A stretch of 64,000 nt of DNA from Geomonas agri (GTDB lineage Bacteria > Desulfobacterota > Desulfuromonadia > Geobacterales > Geobacteraceae), in assembly GCF_020179605.1 (NCBI RefSeq), contig NZ_JAINZO010000001.1, positions 1,462,799-1,526,798 on the forward strand, written 5' to 3'. Below are positions 36,990-43,972 of the stretch, in pieces (position 1 is the first letter of the stretch; every line of letters begins with the position of its first letter). Both the position numbers and the translations under genes were made by a program. The notes beneath the pieces are model-generated. The model was not told the DNA's origin, did no database searches, and saw nothing but the letters and a program-made list of their open reading frames with translations.

Positions 36990-37173
36990 CTCTGTCCCTG
37001 TCGTCTTACGCTGATGGAGCGTCGCAAGTGTAAGGGGAGGAAGGGGTAACTGTCAACAGTTGCGTATACCGGGAGCACTAGATTCAATCCCGACTCCCCT
37101 GCCCTTCATTGAGGTTCTCAAGAAAGCCCAGCAAGAGCTCATTGCTGTTCACGAAGCGCAGCACAGGAACTAA

Positions 37174-37213
37174 GCAAATCTCCCCTGCCCCCCTTCGCAA
37201 AAGGGGGGCAGCG
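37174..37213. repeat. dispersed CCCCCTTCGCAAAAGGGGGG repeat, copy 1
   Basis: GCAAATCTCCCCTGCCCCCCTTCGCAAAAGGGGGGCAG includes a hairpin of six C and six G with a TTCGCAAAA loop; about 38 of 40 bases match the element at 60054-60097. It accounts for much of the 36990-37311 gap; a palindrome AACTGTCAACAGTT is at 37048-37061 and the rest has no clear gene. Confidence 0.8.
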
Positions 37214-37254
37214 TTCCACCACTCAACCACTCCCCGACATATCTACAGGATGGA

Positions 37255-37283
37255 CAAAAAAAGCCCCGGGGGGAACCCGGGGC
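37255..37283 (-). terminator. intrinsic terminator of cysK
   Basis: On the minus strand GCCCCGGG and CCCGGGGC form an 8-bp GC stem with a 5-base loop, followed by seven T. Confidence 0.88.
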
Positions 37284-37311
37284 GAGGGACAGACTTGAGG
37301 TTGTGTGACGG

Positions 37312-38265
37312 TTACGCTTCTTCGAAGAGTGCTGTGGAGAGGTAGCGCTCGGCGAGGTCCGGAAGGATGACCACGATGGTCTTGCCGGCAAATTCATCGA
37401 GGTTGGCAAGGCGCACGGCGGCAGCCACGGCGGCGCCGCTCGAGATTCCAACCAGGAGTCCTTCCTCCTTGGTCAGACGCTTGGCGAATTCGAGCGCCTC
37501 GTTGCTGTCGACCTGCTCGACGCGATCGACTAGGGAGAGGTCGAGGGTTTCCGGGATGAAGCCGGCACCGATGCCCTGGATCTTGTGCGGACCGGGCTTG
37601 AGCTCCTGTCCGGCCAGTTTCTGGGTAATAACCGGGCTTTCCTTCGGCTCGACAGCGACGGCGATGACCGGTTTGCCCTTGGTGTGCTTGAGATACCTGG
37701 CGATGCCGGAAATGGTACCGCCGGTTCCGACGCCCGACACGATGACATCGACGGCGCCGTCGGTATCCGCCCAGATTTCCGGGCCGGTGGTCTTCTCGTG
37801 GATAGCCGGGTTGGCCGGGTTCTTAAACTGCTGCGGCAGGAAATAACGTGCGGGATCAGAAGCGGCAATTTCCTCAGCCTTGGCAACAGCGCCTTTCATA
37901 CCGGCGGAGCCAGGGGTAAGGATCAGGTTGGCGCCCAAAGCGGCCAGTACCCTGCGACGCTCGATGCTCATGGTCTCCGGCATCGTCAGCGTAAGCTTGT
38001 AGCCGCGCGCGGCGGCGACGTAGGCGAGAGCGATACCAGTGTTGCCGCTGGTCGGCTCGACGATCTCAACCCCAGGCTTCAACACGCCACGTTCCTCGGC
38101 GTCCCAGATCATGTTGGCGCCGATACGGCACTTGACCGAGTAGGCAGGGTTGCGCCCTTCGACCTTGGCAAGGACAGTTGCCTTGGCCCCCTTGGTCACG
38201 TGGTTCAGCCGCACCAACGGTGTGTTGCCAATGGATTGGGAGTTATCTTGGTAGATACGGGACAT
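37312..38265 (-). CDS. cysK: cysteine synthase (O-acetylserine sulfhydrylase)
   Basis: A 317-aa PLP enzyme that exchanges the acetyl group of O-acetylserine for sulfide to give cysteine. The Schiff-base lysine is in [11 protein letters not shown] near residue 43, the substrate loop [13 protein letters not shown] near 68, phosphate loop [16 protein letters not shown] near 180, and the C-terminal [15 protein letters not shown] serine region. Length is the family's usual ~310 aa. AAAGGAGA precedes the ATG. It is divergent from the sulfur-carrier/ThiF/JAMM/sulfite reductase genes to its right; CysK/CysM-type enzymes are the acceptors in carrier-dependent cysteine synthesis. Upstream, GTTGGC-AAC-GCCAAC (38299-38313) is a perfect short palindrome in the leader. 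Confidence 0.95.
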
Positions 38266-38884
38266 GTTGGTTGTTCTCCTTTCGGGTGGATGACCTTCGT
38301 TGGCAACGCCAACTTTAACATCTGCGAAATTCTCGGCAATCTCTCAGGGTTTCGCTAATTTTTATATTTAACCTGCAACATTGTCAACTATTTTATTTTA
38401 GTACTTGATCATAGCTATGTGTTTTATCCAAATTCGAGACGCATCACCTCTCGATACAGCAGACATGTCGCCCGGAAAAAGGTAACACATCCGGCGGCCA
38501 CGACGTTCGCATTCTCGCACGACCTGGTCAATAACGCCTCCACACTTACCTGCCGCAGTGGGTTCGTCCGTTCGACGACAGCACCTAACCAGTCGAAAAC
38601 TTGGTTTTTTAATAAACTAGCAGCGGTCGTGACACAGGTGGGGGCGGCTGCATCTGCAGCAGCCACACGCCCCACCCTGACCAAGAACGCACAACACATA
38701 CAACACACAACAACTGTGACAATAGTTATTTATTTCTTGACAAAATAACTTTCAAAAATTACCCTCCCGCATCAATTGGAACAGTGATCACACCGGACTT
38801 TGCCGGTTTGCCGTGCATGGGTAAACCGTGTTTAAAGGCTGTTTTTTGCCAATCATCTATGCTACTAAACTACGAGCACATCTA

Positions 38885-39094
38885 ATGAATCTTACGGTGA
38901 ACGGCAAGCCCGCACCATCGCCGAGGTGACTCCTGTCTCGCGCAACTACCTGCCCGATGCCCTCAAGGCGGAGCAGCGCAAGTATGTCACCGTGGAATTG
39001 AACGGCGATACCAGATCGCGGTGATTTCGAGACGACTACAGTCACAGTCGGCGACAGCATCGAATTTCTCTATTTTATGGGCGGAGGTAGATAG
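38885..39094 (+). pseudogene. frameshifted ThiS-like sulfur-carrier protein
   Basis: Three successive frames join into a ~70-aa ubiquitin-fold carrier: MNLTVNGKP in frame one, TIAEVTPVSRNYLPDALKAEQ and KYVTVELNGD in frame two, and GDFETTTVTVGDSIEFLYFM then GGGR in frame three. The first break is one base lost in a C-run (CCCGCACC against the expected CCCCGCACC, near 38909). The second is in ACCA near 39008-39014. Each part matches ThiS/CysO/HcyS-type carriers whose C-terminal Gly-Gly is adenylated and thiocarboxylated. The ending has an extra Arg after GGG. The stop overlaps the GTG of the adenylyltransferase. Real pseudogene or sequence error cannot be distinguished here. The rest of the 38266-39093 gap has no other gene I can support. 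Confidence 0.8.
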
Positions 39095-39906
39095 TGAAGC
39101 TCACCGAAGAGCAGATTAACCGCTATTCCCGGCACATCCTTCTCAAGGAAGTCGGCGGCAAGGGGCAGTTGAAGCTGATAAACGGCAAGGTGCTGGTGAT
39201 CGGCGTCGGCGGCCTCGGTTCTCCCATCGCCCTCTACCTTGCCGCGGCAGGGGTAGGCACCATCGGCATTGCGGACGCCGACCAGGTCGACCTCTCCAAC
39301 CTGCAGCGCCAGATCATCCACAGCACCCCGGACGTGGGCAAGGCAAAGGTGCTCTCAGCCAAGGAGAAGATGCTTGCCATCAACCCAAAACTGAACGTGG
39401 TAACCTACGAGACCTGGGTCAACGCGGACAACATCCTGCCGATGATCGCCGACTACGACTTCATCATCGACGGCACCGACAACTTTGCGGCCAAGTTCCT
39501 GATCAACGATGCCTGCGTTCTGGCTGGCAAGCCCTACTCCCACGGCGGCATCCTGCAGTTCGACGGGCAGACCTTTACCGTGGCCCCGGGCGAGTCCCCG
39601 TGCTACCGCTGTGTCTTCCCGGAGCCGCCGCCCAAAGAAGTCATCCCCACCTGCTCGCGGGCTGGCGTGATCGGCGTCCTCCCCGGCGTTATCGGCACCC
39701 TGCAGGCCACGGAGGCGATCAAGTTCCTTCTTGGCGCCGGCGACCTGCTGCACGGTCGGCTGCTCACCTACAGCGCGTTGCGCATGCGCTTCCGCGAGGT
39801 GCCCATCCGGAAAAACCCGAAGTGCCCGATCTGCGGCGACAACCCGACCATCACCGAACTGAAGGACGAACTCGATGCCCTGACCGTCTGCGATCTTGGG
39901 CACTGA
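39094..39906 (+). CDS. ThiF/MoeB/HcyF-family carrier adenylyltransferase
   Basis: A 270-aa E1-like enzyme that adenylates the C-terminal glycine of a sulfur carrier. The nucleotide loop is GVGGLGSPIALYLAAAGVG (residues ~34-52), with conserved Asp in IGIADADQVDLSNLQRQIIH, R-x5-K in NLQRQ...GKAK, and DGTDNFAAKFLINDAC near 120. Zinc cysteines are CYRC near 170 and CPIC near 245. GTG start with GGCGGAGG upstream; that site lies inside the last codons of the broken carrier gene, so the two would be co-translated. It is followed after one base by the JAMM gene and is the second step of the protein-thiocarboxylate route. Confidence 0.93.
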   Translation: MKLTEEQINRYSRHILLKEVGGKGQLKLINGKVLVIGVGGLGSPIALYLAAAGVGTIGIADADQVDLSNLQRQIIHSTPDVGKAKVLSAKEKMLAINPKLNVVTYETWVNADNILPMIADYDFIIDGTDNFAAKFLINDACVLAGKPYSHGGILQFDGQTFTVAPGESPCYRCVFPEPPPKEVIPTCSRAGVIGVLPGVIGTLQATEAIKFLLGAGDLLHGRLLTYSALRMRFREVPIRKNPKCPICGDNPTITELKDELDALTVCDLGH

Positions 39907-39907
39907 G

Positions 39908-40309
39908 ATGCTGGAGATCCCTAGGGAGGTACTGGTCGCGGTGATCGCCCAGGCGCAGGAGGGCTTCCCGTTGGAAGTGTGCGGGCTCATGGGAGGTACC
40001 GGGAACCGCGTGGCGTCCCGCTACCCGATGACCAACACCGATGCGAGCAACGAGCACTTCATGATGGACCCGAAGGAGCAATTCGCCGCGGTTAAGGCGA
40101 TGCGTGCCGCTGGCGAGGAGATGCTAGCCATCTACCACTCGCACCCGGAGTCCCCAGCCCACCCCTCGCTGGAGGACATCCGCCTCGCTCTGACCCCCAA
40201 CGTATGCCACCTGATCCTGTCGCTGGAGAACCGTGAAGAGCCGGTGGCCAGGGCGTTCAGGATCAGTGCTGGCAACGTGGAGCCGGTGGAACTGATCATA
40301 GCAGGGTGA
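39908..40309 (+). CDS. JAMM/MPN+ metalloprotease (Mec+/HcyD-like)
   Basis: A 133-aa zinc-dependent peptidase of the JAMM fold. The catalytic Glu is in FPLEVCGLMGG near residue 21 and the metal motif is HSHPESPAHPSLEDIR near residue 78 (HxHx7Sx2D). In the CysO and HcyS pathways such enzymes remove a C-terminal residue to expose Gly-Gly and then release cysteine or homocysteine from the carrier. The ATG at 39908 starts one base after the ThiF stop; a TTG at 39896 is an alternative. Its substrate would be the carrier ending GGGR. Confidence 0.9.
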   Translation: MLEIPREVLVAVIAQAQEGFPLEVCGLMGGTGNRVASRYPMTNTDASNEHFMMDPKEQFAAVKAMRAAGEEMLAIYHSHPESPAHPSLEDIRLALTPNVCHLILSLENREEPVARAFRISAGNVEPVELIIAG

Positions 40310-40325
40310 ACCCAAAGGCATTCGA

Positions 40326-40400
40326 ACAGGGATAAAAGGGATACGGCAACATTGGGAACCTATGTCCCGGTTTTGTCCCTGGTATCCCTTTTATCCCTGT
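40326..40400. repeat. dispersed ACAGGGATAAAAGGGAT hairpin, copy 2
   Basis: A perfect 19-bp inverted repeat, ACAGGGATAAAAGGGATAC (40326-40344) and its reverse complement (40382-40400), with a 37-base interior. The same word flanks the element between pheS and pheT. It divides the JAMM gene from the sulfite reductase gene. Confidence 0.92.
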
Positions 40401-40427
40401 AAATGTTTTTGATTCAGGAGAGAAAAC

Positions 40428-41378
40428 GTGGCTGAACCGAAGATTGATCTGAAAAACCTGAAGGCCGGCGGTTTCATCAAGGAGCGCGGCAAGGACCTGT
40501 TCACGGTGCGCCTGCGCGTGCCCGGCGGCAGGATGTCAGTGGACCGCCTGGCAAAGATCGCAAGGGTTGCACAAAAATTCGGTAAAGGATACGTGCACCT
40601 GTCGGTGCGCCAGTCCATCGAACTGATCAACATAAACTTCGCAGATTTCGACGCGGTGGTCGCCGAACTGGGCGAGGAACAACAGAAAGTCGCCTCCTGC
40701 GGTGCACGCGTGCGCGTCCCCACCGCCTGCGGCGGCTGCGAATACAACCCCAACGGCCTTGTCGACACGCAGAAGTCCGCGCTAGAGGTGGATCAGAAGC
40801 TGTTCGGGACTGCCACCGGCCACCACAAGTTCAAGGTCTGCTTCGCAGGCTGCCCCTTCGACTGTCCTAAGTCGGCCATTAACGACGTCGGTTTTCAGGG
40901 TGCGGTCTGGCCCAAACTCGATGTCGACGGCTGCATCGGCTGTGGCCTGTGTGCCAAGTCCTGCACGGAGGGGGCGCTCAGCATGGGCGCGGACAAGAAG
41001 CCGGTCTTCGATGCGGTCAAGTGCATCTACTGCGGCGACTGCATCAAGGTCTGCCCGACGGGCGCATGGAGCGCTGAGAAAAAGGGGTACACGGTAAGAA
41101 TCGGCGGCAAATGGGGGCGTCGTCCCTTGGTCGGGACCCTCTTCGCCACCTTCGTCCCCGAAGAGCGCGTGGTGGACTTCATCACCTGCGTCCTCACCTG
41201 GTACCAGGAGAAGGCGGAGGGAGCCGGGCGCGTGCGCTTGGGAGACATCATCATCCGCGAAGGGTGGCAGTCTCTGTTGGAGCGCCTGCGTAGCGAATTC
41301 CCTCAGTACGTGGTTCAGCAAACTATTGCTCCGCAAGTCATCCAAACTCAGCTGCCGCTGCCCGGCCAGCAGGCTTAA
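40428..41378 (+). CDS. siroheme sulfite/nitrite reductase with ferredoxin domain
   Basis: A 316-aa enzyme expected to reduce sulfite to sulfide in the cytoplasm. The N-terminal half is the sulfite/nitrite reductase ferredoxin-like domain (VRLRVPGGRMSVDRL, GKGYVHLSVRQSIEL); siroheme/cluster cysteines appear in TACGGCEYNPNG and VCFAGCPFDCPKSA. Two [4Fe-4S] ferredoxin motifs follow, CIGCGLCAKSC and CIYCGDCIKVCPTGA, near residues 165-210. The size is that of small dissimilatory-like or low-spin assimilatory sulfite reductases of anaerobes. GTG start with AGGAGAG upstream. In the HcyS pathway, sulfite reductase supplies the bisulfide for the carrier, which fits this location. Confidence 0.88.
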   Translation: MAEPKIDLKNLKAGGFIKERGKDLFTVRLRVPGGRMSVDRLAKIARVAQKFGKGYVHLSVRQSIELININFADFDAVVAELGEEQQKVASCGARVRVPTACGGCEYNPNGLVDTQKSALEVDQKLFGTATGHHKFKVCFAGCPFDCPKSAINDVGFQGAVWPKLDVDGCIGCGLCAKSCTEGALSMGADKKPVFDAVKCIYCGDCIKVCPTGAWSAEKKGYTVRIGGKWGRRPLVGTLFATFVPEERVVDFITCVLTWYQEKAEGAGRVRLGDIIIREGWQSLLERLRSEFPQYVVQQTIAPQVIQTQLPLPGQQA

Positions 41379-41399
41379 AGCAAAAAACGAGGAAACAGC

Positions 41400-41624
41400 A
41401 TGCAAACCATTGACCTCAGGGGTGTTACTTGCCCTACCAACTTCGTCATGGCTAAGCTGGAACTGGAGGACATCGAGACGGGCACCACCATCGAATTCCT
41501 GCTGGACGACGGCGAGCCGGCCAAGAATGTCCCCAGGAGCCTGAAGGACGAAGGGCACAAGCTGCTCGGCTTACAGGAAAGGGATGGGTACTACGTGCTC
41601 ACGCTGGAAAAAGGCGAGGATTAA
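41400..41624 (+). CDS. tusA: TusA-family sulfur transferase
   Basis: A 74-aa sulfur-relay protein. The active cysteine and hallmark are in DLRGVTCPTNFVMAKLEL (CPxx, Cys near residue 11), and the C-terminal strand reads GYYVLTLEK. TusA passes persulfide sulfur to tRNA thiolation and molybdopterin pathways; here it lies between sulfite reductase and mnmA and could link the two. It begins 21 bp after the sulfite reductase stop. Confidence 0.92.
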   Translation: MQTIDLRGVTCPTNFVMAKLELEDIETGTTIEFLLDDGEPAKNVPRSLKDEGHKLLGLQERDGYYVLTLEKGED

Positions 41625-41664
41625 CTGGTTTGTCCTCGCTGAGAGTAGAAGTGGTCCGTCCCCA

Positions 41665-41770
41665 TCGCCCTCCAGGAGAGGGTGCCCGAAGGGCGGGTGA
41701 GGGAAGCGCCACGGAGTGAGACATTCGTCTGATGCACAGTGCCCTCACCCCGCCCCTCTCCCGGAGCGTG
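41665..41770. repeat. inverted pair of dispersed intergenic repeats
   Basis: GCCCTCCAGGAGAGGGTGCC...GGCGGGTGAGGG on the left and CCCTCACCCCGCCCCTCTCCCGG on the right are inverted relatives of a widespread dispersed-repeat type. They fill the tusA-mnmA gap. Confidence 0.65.
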
Positions 41771-41833
41771 GACAGGCGATATATGAATGATTCGGCGTTG
41801 TGCGCTAGGATCCGGATCGACGGGAAAAGAAAA

Positions 41834-42904
41834 ATGTCAGGTAAAAAACGAGTTATTGTGGCAATGAGCGGCGGCGTCGATTCATCGGTGACCGCCGCTC
41901 TTCTCAAAGAACAGGGACACGACGTCATCGGAGTCTCACTCCAGCTCTACGAGCGCCCCGAAAAGACGCCATCCGGCGGCAAAACCTGCTGTTCCCTAAC
42001 CGACGTCATGGACGCCGCCCGCGTCGCCAAACGCCTCGGGATCCCATTCCAGGTAGTGGACCTGCGCCAGCGCTTCAAGGAACTGGTGATCGACGATTTC
42101 GTCTCGGAATACCAGGCGGGCAGAACCCCGAACCCCTGCGCACGTTGCAACGAGAGGATCAAGTTCGGCCTGCTCCTGGAGATGACCGCCTCCTTCGACG
42201 CCGACCTCCTCGCCACCGGGCACTACGCCCGCATCGAGCAGGACGCGACCAACATCTACCGGCTACGCAAAGGACTGGATCCCCGCAAAGACCAGACCTA
42301 CTTCCTGTTCGGCATGAACCAGCAGCAACTGGCGCGCACCATCTTTCCTGTGGGACACCTGGAGAAGCCAGAGGTGCGGCAGCTCGCCACGCGCTTCAAC
42401 CTCCCCGTGGCCCAAAAGCAGGAAAGCCAGGAGATCTGCTTCATCCCCGACAACGACTACGTCCGCTTCCTGGAAGAAAGCGGCGTCTCGCCGCGCGAAG
42501 GCGAGATCGTGGACCACGACGGCAAAGCGTTGGGGCACCACGACGGTATCCACCGCTACACCATCGGGCAGCGACGCGGATTGGGCATCGCCTGGAAGGA
42601 ACCGCTCTACGTCACTGGTCTCGATCCCGCGAAGGCGCAGGTTGTGGTCGGGCCGAAAGAGGAACTGCACCGGAGCCACCTGCTGGCCAACCAGCTCACC
42701 TGGACCGACACCCCCATCACCGGCAGTTTCCGCGGCACCTGCAGCATCCGCTACCGGCAACAGCCGGTGCCTTGTCGTGCCGAACTGTGCCAGGACGGCA
42801 GGCTGCGGGTCGATTTCGACACGCCGCAGACAGGGGTGACCCCGGGGCAGGCCGTAGTTTTCTACGACGGCGACAGCGTGGCAGGCGGCGGCTGGATCCT
42901 CTAA
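41834..42904 (+). CDS. mnmA: tRNA-specific 2-thiouridylase
   Basis: A 356-aa PP-loop ATPase that thiolates U34 of Lys, Glu and Gln tRNAs. P-loop AMSGGVDSSVTAALLK is near the N-terminus, the first catalytic cysteine in PNPCARCNERIKFG near residue 100, GHYARIE, DQTYFLFG near 155, and the second catalytic cysteine in QEICFIPDNDY near 200, followed by the C-terminal beta-barrel (HRYTIGQRRGLG). Start chosen at 41834 (MSGKKRVIVAMSGG); an upstream ATG in frame at 41783 adds residues unlike the family. Sulfur would come through a persulfide relay, and tusA is adjacent. Confidence 0.94.
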   Translation: MSGKKRVIVAMSGGVDSSVTAALLKEQGHDVIGVSLQLYERPEKTPSGGKTCCSLTDVMDAARVAKRLGIPFQVVDLRQRFKELVIDDFVSEYQAGRTPNPCARCNERIKFGLLLEMTASFDADLLATGHYARIEQDATNIYRLRKGLDPRKDQTYFLFGMNQQQLARTIFPVGHLEKPEVRQLATRFNLPVAQKQESQEICFIPDNDYVRFLEESGVSPREGEIVDHDGKALGHHDGIHRYTIGQRRGLGIAWKEPLYVTGLDPAKAQVVVGPKEELHRSHLLANQLTWTDTPITGSFRGTCSIRYRQQPVPCRAELCQDGRLRVDFDTPQTGVTPGQAVVFYDGDSVAGGGWIL

Positions 42905-42916
42905 TCAGCCGCCAAT

Positions 42917-43972
42917 TCAACTAAGGCGGCGGAAGGAAGAGGCCTTGATGACCGCGTAAACTTGGGTTCTCGCCTGGATAGCAAGATCATCAGCTGCCTG
43001 AACCACCACTTCCGCGATCAGCGTTTCGTGCCCACAACGCAGCTCAACACCCACCTTGTTTCCTGAGGGAAAGGTGTCCATCACGGTGCACTTAAGGAGG
43101 TTGCGGGCGCTGACCGCCTCGGGATGCCTGGTGAACAGGATGATGTCCCGCGAGGAAAGCTCGAACACCGCCATCGGCTCGTCGTTGCCCGCAGAAACAA
43201 AGATCTCCTCCATCCCCCACCGGTACACGTACAGCCCCCCCATCTTGCGCAGTTTCTCTACCTGCAACACGTTGATATAGCCCACCTGGCTCTGCCCCAT
43301 CCGTTCGCGGGCCAGTTGTTCAGGCGTAGTCTGCCCGAGCACCCTCCCGCCCCCCATGGCCAGCACCTGGTCGGTCAAAAGCCGTATCTCCAGCAGGGAA
43401 TGAGAAATGAAAAGGTAGGGAATCCGGAATCTTTCACTGGCACGTTTCAAGTAGTGGATGATCTGCAACTTGAGGGCGTCGTCGAGCGCGGACAGGGACT
43501 CGTCCATGAGCAACAGGCGCGGATTGGAGAGTATCGCCCGCCCCAAGGCGACCCGCTGCTTCTCGCCGCCGGAAAGACGGTTCACCCCGCGGTCAAGCAA
43601 ACCGTCCAGTTTGAGCACGGAGACCAGTGCCTTGACGTCGATCTGCCGGTGTCGGGACGGACAGCGCCGGTAGCCGTAGAGCAGATTTGCCTCAACGCTA
43701 AGGTGCGGAAACAGGCAGCTGTCCTGGAACACGATGGCAACCCGGCGTTCCTGCGGGGGGAGGTTGATGCCGCGCTCGCTGCTGAACAGGCAGGTACTGT
43801 CGAGGACGATCTCCCCCTGGTCAGGCTCGAGCAGCCCGGCGATCAGGCTGACCAGGGTTGATTTGCCGCTCCCGGAGACACCGAAGACGCCAACCTGCTC
43901 CCCCGTCACGGTAAAGTCCGTGTTCAGGTCGAAGGCCCCGAAGTCCTTGGCAACCGCCATACTCAATTCCAT
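42917..43972 (-). CDS. modC: molybdate ABC transporter ATP-binding protein
   Basis: A 351-aa ATPase with Walker A GVSGSGKSTLVSLIAGLLEP near residue 35, Q-loop, signature LSGGEKQRVALGRAIL, Walker B LLLMDESLSALDD and a C-terminal Mop/TOBE domain (NLLKCTVMDTFPSGNKVGVELRCGHETLIAEV). The TOBE domain and pairing with a ModB-like permease indicate molybdate or tungstate import. The start ATG follows the modB stop by one base with AGGAGG upstream. The gene supplying the binding protein (modA) is not next to it. Confidence 0.92.
   Translation of the reverse strand: MELSMAVAKDFGAFDLNTDFTVTGEQVGVFGVSGSGKSTLVSLIAGLLEPDQGEIVLDSTCLFSSERGINLPPQERRVAIVFQDSCLFPHLSVEANLLYGYRRCPSRHRQIDVKALVSVLKLDGLLDRGVNRLSGGEKQRVALGRAILSNPRLLLMDESLSALDDALKLQIIHYLKRASERFRIPYLFISHSLLEIRLLTDQVLAMGGGRVLGQTTPEQLARERMGQSQVGYINVLQVEKLRKMGGLYVYRWGMEEIFVSAGNDEPMAVFELSSRDIILFTRHPEAVSARNLLKCTVMDTFPSGNKVGVELRCGHETLIAEVVVQAADDLAIQARTQVYAVIKASSFRRLS

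Follow-up and report, generated by a model that had tools for sequence, protein, structure and literature searches.

A broken sulfur carrier gene before constrained partner genes in Geomonas agri, and a candidate link between a JAMM peptidase and ThiS

Among the sulfur-assimilation operons described by Iyer, Burroughs and Aravind (2006, PMC1779556), class 4e combines a ThiS/MoaD-like protein, a JAB protein, an E1-like enzyme, SirA and a sulfite reductase; the passages on this class name Geobacter metallireducens and Wolinella succinogenes among its members. Thiocarboxylate-dependent cysteine synthesis is described for Mycobacterium tuberculosis in passages of PMC6225789. For Thermus thermophilus, the relevant passages of PMC3980101 report that a single E1-like enzyme, TtuC, serves TtuB, MoaD and ThiS, and that TtuB conjugates were aberrant once a JAMM homologue had been deleted.

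The locus studied here lies in a genome of 4.68 Mb in 7 contigs, within a stretch of 64,000 nucleotides (G000:C1:1462799-1526798) to which we refer as the window. Its features are:

37312..38265, minus strand: CysK, O-acetylserine sulfhydrylase, divergent and upstream (TIGR01139 464.9 bits, cut-off 350.95)
38885..39094, plus strand: probable pseudogene of a ThiS/HcyS-type sulfur carrier, with a 1-base and a 2-base deletion, a stop at codon 15 and a readable MGGGR end
39083..39087, plus strand: GGAGG, the likely ThiF ribosome-binding site, inside the carrier's Gly codons and identical in 15 of 15 aligned sequences
39094..39906, plus strand: ThiF/MoeB-type adenylyltransferase, 270 aa, GTG start (Pfam ThiF 284.8 bits)
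39908..40309, plus strand: JAMM/JAB metallopeptidase, 133 aa (Pfam Prok-JAB 88.2 bits)
40428..41378, plus strand: siroheme sulfite reductase-like protein (Sir, AsrC-like), 316 aa (NIR_SIR and NIR_SIR_ferr)
41400..41624, plus strand: TusA/SirA-type sulfurtransferase, 74 aa (Pfam TusA 72.8 bits)

In the Wolinella pathway the carrier residue after GG is reportedly removed by a JAMM peptidase and the carrier adenylated by a ThiF homologue; the window differs in that its carrier is broken and the neighbouring gene is CysK, not homocysteine synthase. With the CysO-Mec+-CysM set of M. tuberculosis, which works with MoeZ, the locus shares the combination of carrier, JAMM and cysteine synthase. The JAMM of that organism releases cysteine from the carrier, whereas a trimming role would be assigned here from the tails of carrier proteins. 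Like class 4e, the window has in one gene run an E1-like enzyme lacking a rhodanese domain, a JAB protein, a sulfite reductase and SirA/TusA. It departs from the class, as those passages of PMC1779556 describe it, in having no functional ThiS/MoaD-like carrier; in 16 of 18 same-genus relatives the carrier has an open frame. The Thermus system is similar in that one adenylating enzyme serves several carriers, including ThiS, and differs in that carrier loss is absent from the system as reported in those passages (PMC3980101), whereas the carrier has been lost in the window.

The carrier gene and its lesions

Between 38885 and 39094 three frames jointly give a ThiS-like protein ending MGGGR. This had been noticed in an initial annotation made from the letters alone, and it is confirmed here: the read-through scores above the cut-off of the NCBIfam thiS model TIGR01683 (39.9 bits, cut-off 37.45) and just below that of Pfam ThiS (21.5 bits, cut-off 22.5). 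The open orthologue from one relative (G011) reaches 67.4 bits on TIGR01683, and it matches structure 2k5p/3cwi, filed as ThiS, at 1.2e-24; this structure is that of a homologue of the carrier. Alignment with 14 relatives and column comparison with four of them place a 1-base deletion in codon 10 (38912/38913) and a 2-base deletion in codon 44 (39013/39014), neither of them within a long homopolymer. The annotation had proposed a C lost from a run of Cs and a second shift near 39010; the one-base loss holds, at a CC pair rather than a long C-run, and the second shift is present and can now be specified as the loss of two bases. The first frame ends at the TGA at 38927-38929, codon 15. As the net loss is three bases, the last third of the carrier returns to the first frame. 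The window carrier thus has no single open reading frame to the C-terminal GG, and the stop and the two shifts point to a pseudogene rather than a working ThiS-type member.

The ribosome-binding site and GTG start of ThiF had been placed inside the carrier's last codons, and they are indeed found there; the GTG overlaps the carrier stop and, like the GGAGG, is identical in 15/15 aligned sequences (the window and 14 relatives). The last 48 carrier bases, which hold the binding site, show 2/42 private changes compared with 17/142, a difference that is not significant (p = 0.25); private changes are those unique to one lineage among the window and four relatives.

In the 16 same-genus relatives with an open carrier, the frame immediately precedes ThiF; G004 and G016, which make up the 18, have no carrier at the locus. 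Searching with a carrier C-terminal pattern retrieved 30 loci, 29 of them open and the window's alone broken, and neither window deletion occurs in any of the 14 aligned relatives. In a further genome, G149 (L356:2539-2802), a second, diverged carrier-like ORF that lacks the GG end directly precedes the open carrier.

The window carrier has accumulated 8 nonsynonymous and 10 synonymous private changes in its 67 codons. For the five partner genes the same lineage shows 16 and 121 in 1110 codons (Fisher p = 0.0017 against the carrier), and for all 19 genes counted in frame 119 and 672 (p = 0.0033), the gene at 42917 being excluded from the totals. All 8 nonsynonymous changes fall at positions identical in the four relatives, and they include changes to Arg, Pro and Lys. 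The excess of amino-acid changes rests on this small number, and the carriers of the four relatives taken together, with 3/10 private changes, do not differ significantly from the 8/10 of the window (p = 0.28).

Read accuracy was assessed by comparing five relatives with the window over 51.5 to 60 kb each. Of 307 ORFs of the relatives, 155 matched the window in one frame along 90% of the ORF; the others, made up of short matches, spurious ORFs and genes that the window lacks, are uninformative on errors, and the matches may include antisense ORFs. ORFs matching in single frames cover 45,820 window bases, compared with two deletions inside the 210 bases of the carrier. The five comparisons gave 10 apparent splits, none assignable to a gene body. 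Translations were inspected for seven of these, with one region aligned, and the remaining three were judged from coordinates alone. Start extensions, a break in the relative G007 itself, or ORFs opposite or between genes seem to account for the seven, which were rejected as candidate frameshifts. Two of the three judged from coordinates lie opposite the Sir-TusA end and the other is a 60-aa ORF. The split at 26 kb presumably lies opposite infC-rpmI-rplT.

The window carrier is therefore most probably a genuine pseudogene of fairly recent origin, and its partner genes appear constrained and still in use. Loss, replacement and sequencing error had all been offered as explanations by the annotation, and an uninterrupted frame in related genomes was to count as a sign of error. 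The uninterrupted frame is there in the relatives; the conclusion of error is nevertheless disfavoured by the excess of amino-acid changes in the window copy, and the evidence favours loss in this species. That the breaks are sequencing or assembly errors, and that the living strain has an intact carrier, seems to us very unlikely. Close relatives do have the single open frame, a net loss that is a multiple of three could come from compensating errors, and some of the private changes could be ordinary divergence; but dropped bases would not explain why amino-acid changes are in excess at sites that are the same in four relatives, the single-frame matches extend over 45.8 kb with no further break that could be placed in a gene body, and long homopolymers are absent from both sites. 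Harder still to credit is that the carrier continues to be made through programmed frameshifting. Although the MGGGR end and the ThiF binding site are conserved, such a mechanism would have to supply two separate shifts, neither of which is found in any of the 14 relatives, in a protein whose core has undergone non-conservative changes, and no Rfam family reaches its gathering score within 37000-42000.

Partner enzymes and other carriers

That the partner enzymes are intact, as first annotated, is borne out by their pattern of change: they are as constrained in this lineage as in the four others (16/121 and 41/307, p = 1.0). The window ThiF passes the MoeB subfamily model NF004281 (278.7 bits, cut-off 266) and lies below the cut-offs of both the ThiF and the MoeB equivalog models, with 254.2 bits on TIGR02356 thiF (cut-off 275.25). 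It matches E. coli ThiF (1zfn) at 7.7e-54, and in this alignment the nucleotide-binding motif, NLQRQ, the two CxxC pairs and the Cys region, which we take to be the residues that matter, are all present. It is 91-97% identical to the ThiF of named Geomonas, with 3 nonsynonymous and 27 synonymous private changes.

Aligned with 2kks, 2kcq and JAMM1 chains, the JAMM has the Glu and the H-x-H-x7-S-x2-D sequence that we assume to be the JAMM metal-site motif; by position and fold family it would be HcyD/Mec+-like. It is the sole Prok-JAB above cut-off in the genome, two further matches, at 17.1 bits, falling below. Its private changes (6/13) give the highest ratio of any partner, a value that does not differ significantly from the 10/37 of the other lineages (p = 0.53). 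Sir scores 158.1 bits on TIGR02912, below the cut-off of 324.1, and CysK has 0 nonsynonymous changes private to the window lineage. The genome also encodes two O-acetylhomoserine sulfhydrylase-like proteins (TIGR01326, 698 and 626 bits, cut-off 495).

Five ThiF-like genes are present in the genome, and the window's alone passes a curated MoeB/ThiF cut-off. One of the others is TcdA-like, its 180 bits falling below the cut-off of 304. The remaining three occur alongside or close to MoaD-like carriers, and in two of these cases aldehyde ferredoxin oxidoreductase genes are adjacent. Pairings of MoaD-like carriers with nearby ThiF-like enzymes were seen at L003, L004, L005 and L010. Five further carriers score above the ThiS cut-off, four of which end exactly in GG and are MoaD-like by sequence, with weak NCBIfam MoaD-family matches for two and none for the other two. 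The fifth is the ThiS encoded beside ThiG and ThiE, which ends GGGAGRG; no thiF lies beside it within the 3.2 kb examined. The annotation had called for a search for another ThiS/HcyS-like carrier ending in GG and one more residue. No second carrier of the same HcyS-type subtype was found in the genome, and what the search did bring up was this thiamine ThiS, with four residues after its GGG.

Passages of PMC1779556 state that ThiS and MoaD hold sulfur on the terminal glycine after adenylation. Because sulfur is loaded there and the ThiS of this genome is tailed, ThiS should first need trimming. The JAMM is the obvious candidate for this step, and with ThiS ending in GGG and extra residues, ThiF and JAMM have a likely remaining client.

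ThiS tails and JAMM across genomes

The ThiS end was read in 123 genomes of the class, a sample that is not random: of 200 genomes, 48 were unmatched by the ThiS pattern and so unread for tails, as were some that matched. A genome was scored as having JAMM from 75 bits upwards, and weaker Prok-JAB matches were disregarded; G139, where a contig end truncates the JAMM, and G020, where only its C-terminal part is present, were scored as lacking it. One tailed ThiS was enough for a genome with two to be scored as tailed (G030 has a tailed and an untailed one); for G109 and G111 one of two ThiS was read.

Tailed ThiS occurs in 29 of the 123 genomes, and the residues after GGG vary between genera. 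JAMM at this threshold accompanies 28 of the 29 tailed ThiS, compared with 24 of the 94 untailed. Since 17 of the 29 tailed genomes are Geomonas, shuffles were done within strata. Among 93 genomes of the same order, the observed overlap of tail and JAMM was reached in 0 of 20,000 shuffles within families and in 169 of 20,000 within genera. The association thus comes largely from Geomonas and is weaker within genera.

Leaving the window genome aside, 49 genomes yielded an HcyS-type carrier end, and all 49 have JAMM at 75 bits or more. The carrier frame was read in 34 of them and is open, with at least one residue after GGG, in every case; the other 15 are known from the C-terminal pattern alone, a pattern that missed at least G024 and G186. 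The 52 JAMM genomes in which the ThiS end was read comprise 47 with the carrier, 2 with tailed ThiS only and 3 with neither. A tailed ThiS and a JAMM without a working carrier were found in the window genome and in G004, where no HcyS-type carrier was found. The operon of G004 is split (L214, L215), with JAMM and Sir at one site, ThiF and TusA at another, and no carrier at either. In G016 and G020 ThiS is untailed and the carrier absent, and ThiF, Sir and TusA are kept. G016 has no JAMM, and the operon JAMM of G020 is recognisable only over residues 77-131 of 133 (the last 55); G020 has a second, different Prok-JAB elsewhere (48 bits).

There are exceptions. The ThiS of G136 ends GGGR, a one-residue tail, in a genome with no Prok-JAB match at E <= 1e-5 (L350, G136:C1:1744675-1751000). 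Conversely, G140, G141 and G145 have JAMM, but their ThiS is untailed and they yielded no HcyS-type carrier; G139 may be a fourth such genome. These exceptions, and the second Prok-JAB of G020, indicate that JAMM has other uses or that other peptidases can trim. The overall pattern, exceptions included, fits a peptidase that is kept where a tailed carrier needs trimming.

Several arrangements were seen in passing. A carrier was found in none of the ThiF-JAMM-TusA gene runs of G140, G141 and G145 (L345-L349; three runs in G141), and each of these genomes has a second ThiS-like carrier, ending WFVGGG. In G017, which has JAMM, no stop separates ThiS from ThiG, and the ThiS frame continues past GGG and on into ThiG (L157, G017:C233:21386-21583 and on).

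Possible sharing of ThiF and JAMM with ThiS

We propose that the carrier was lost recently, that its loss is tolerated through the use of free sulfide, and that ThiF and JAMM were shared and now serve ThiS; we put the probability of this reading at roughly 60%. In relatives, by analogy with the named homologues from which the chemistry of the intact system is taken, a carrier ending in GGG and one or two residues would be trimmed by the neighbouring JAMM, exposing the C-terminal glycine, and then adenylated by ThiF. Sulfur from sulfite, reduced by Sir and relayed by TusA, would be loaded on it as a thiocarboxylate and delivered to an amino-acid synthase, with cysteine or homocysteine as the most likely product. 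Deletions would have inactivated the carrier of this Geomonas species recently, a loss presumably tolerated because CysK and the two O-acetylhomoserine sulfhydrylase-like enzymes could use free sulfide. The thiamine ThiS, tailed and with no adjacent ThiF gene, would take the same trimming by JAMM and adenylation by ThiF, and this sharing would keep both enzymes under selection. Support for JAMM as a candidate carrier-trimming peptidase of the HcyD/QbsD type, and for its action on ThiS, is correlative.

A more general version of this proposal, to which we give somewhat less than even odds, is that a sulfur-assimilation JAMM has turned into a maturation enzyme for ThiS. If JAMM cuts after GGG, a ThiS in its presence may lose its normal stop and gain arbitrary tails or a run-on into ThiG. 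ThiS would come to depend on JAMM, and the original carrier would become dispensable, as in the window genome and perhaps in G004. If true, this would be a ratchet by which a second pathway captures an enzyme.

The partners might instead be awaiting the fate of the carrier, the whole operon being on its way out with the carrier as its first casualty. We think this rather unlikely, while recognising what speaks for it: the loss looks recent, the carrier ratio of 0.8 lying below the fully neutral expectation (itself an estimate), the JAMM ratio is the highest among the partners, and G016 and G020 have lost the carrier together with all or most of the operon JAMM. In those same two genomes, however, ThiF, Sir and TusA persist without a carrier, and in the window lineage neither the partners as a group nor JAMM by itself shows relaxation. 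It is less probable again, and by some way, that ThiS or a MoaD-like protein has taken over from the carrier, so that protein-bound sulfur still reaches CysK or homocysteine synthesis. Candidates exist in the five other carriers above the ThiS cut-off, and precedent can be found in other organisms both for redundant carriers (PMC11323500) and for one E1-like enzyme serving several carriers (PMC3980101), but the genome yielded no other carrier of this subtype and none of its sequences gives a sign of interaction with CysK. Sharing of ThiF and JAMM with ThiS is the reading that we prefer.

The operon class and its parts are already known, and a carrier lost from a single species is in itself a minor event. 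Among the matches listed in searches of the open-licence literature, in which 'ThiS' is inseparable from 'this', there was no paper on JAMM trimming of thiamine ThiS and none on the carrier pseudogene of the window. A passage of PMC1779556 states that the thiamine pathway has no JAB proteins; the correlative evidence given here suggests a link between JAMM and thiamine ThiS that runs against that statement. A freshly lost carrier whose enzymes have been kept is a natural knock-out and asks what else these enzymes do. A dead carrier is not sufficient to call its operon dead, and a ThiS that carries extra residues at its C terminus may be a precursor. For the Geobacterales, the locus suggests a connection between a JAMM peptidase and vitamin B1 synthesis that can be put to the test.
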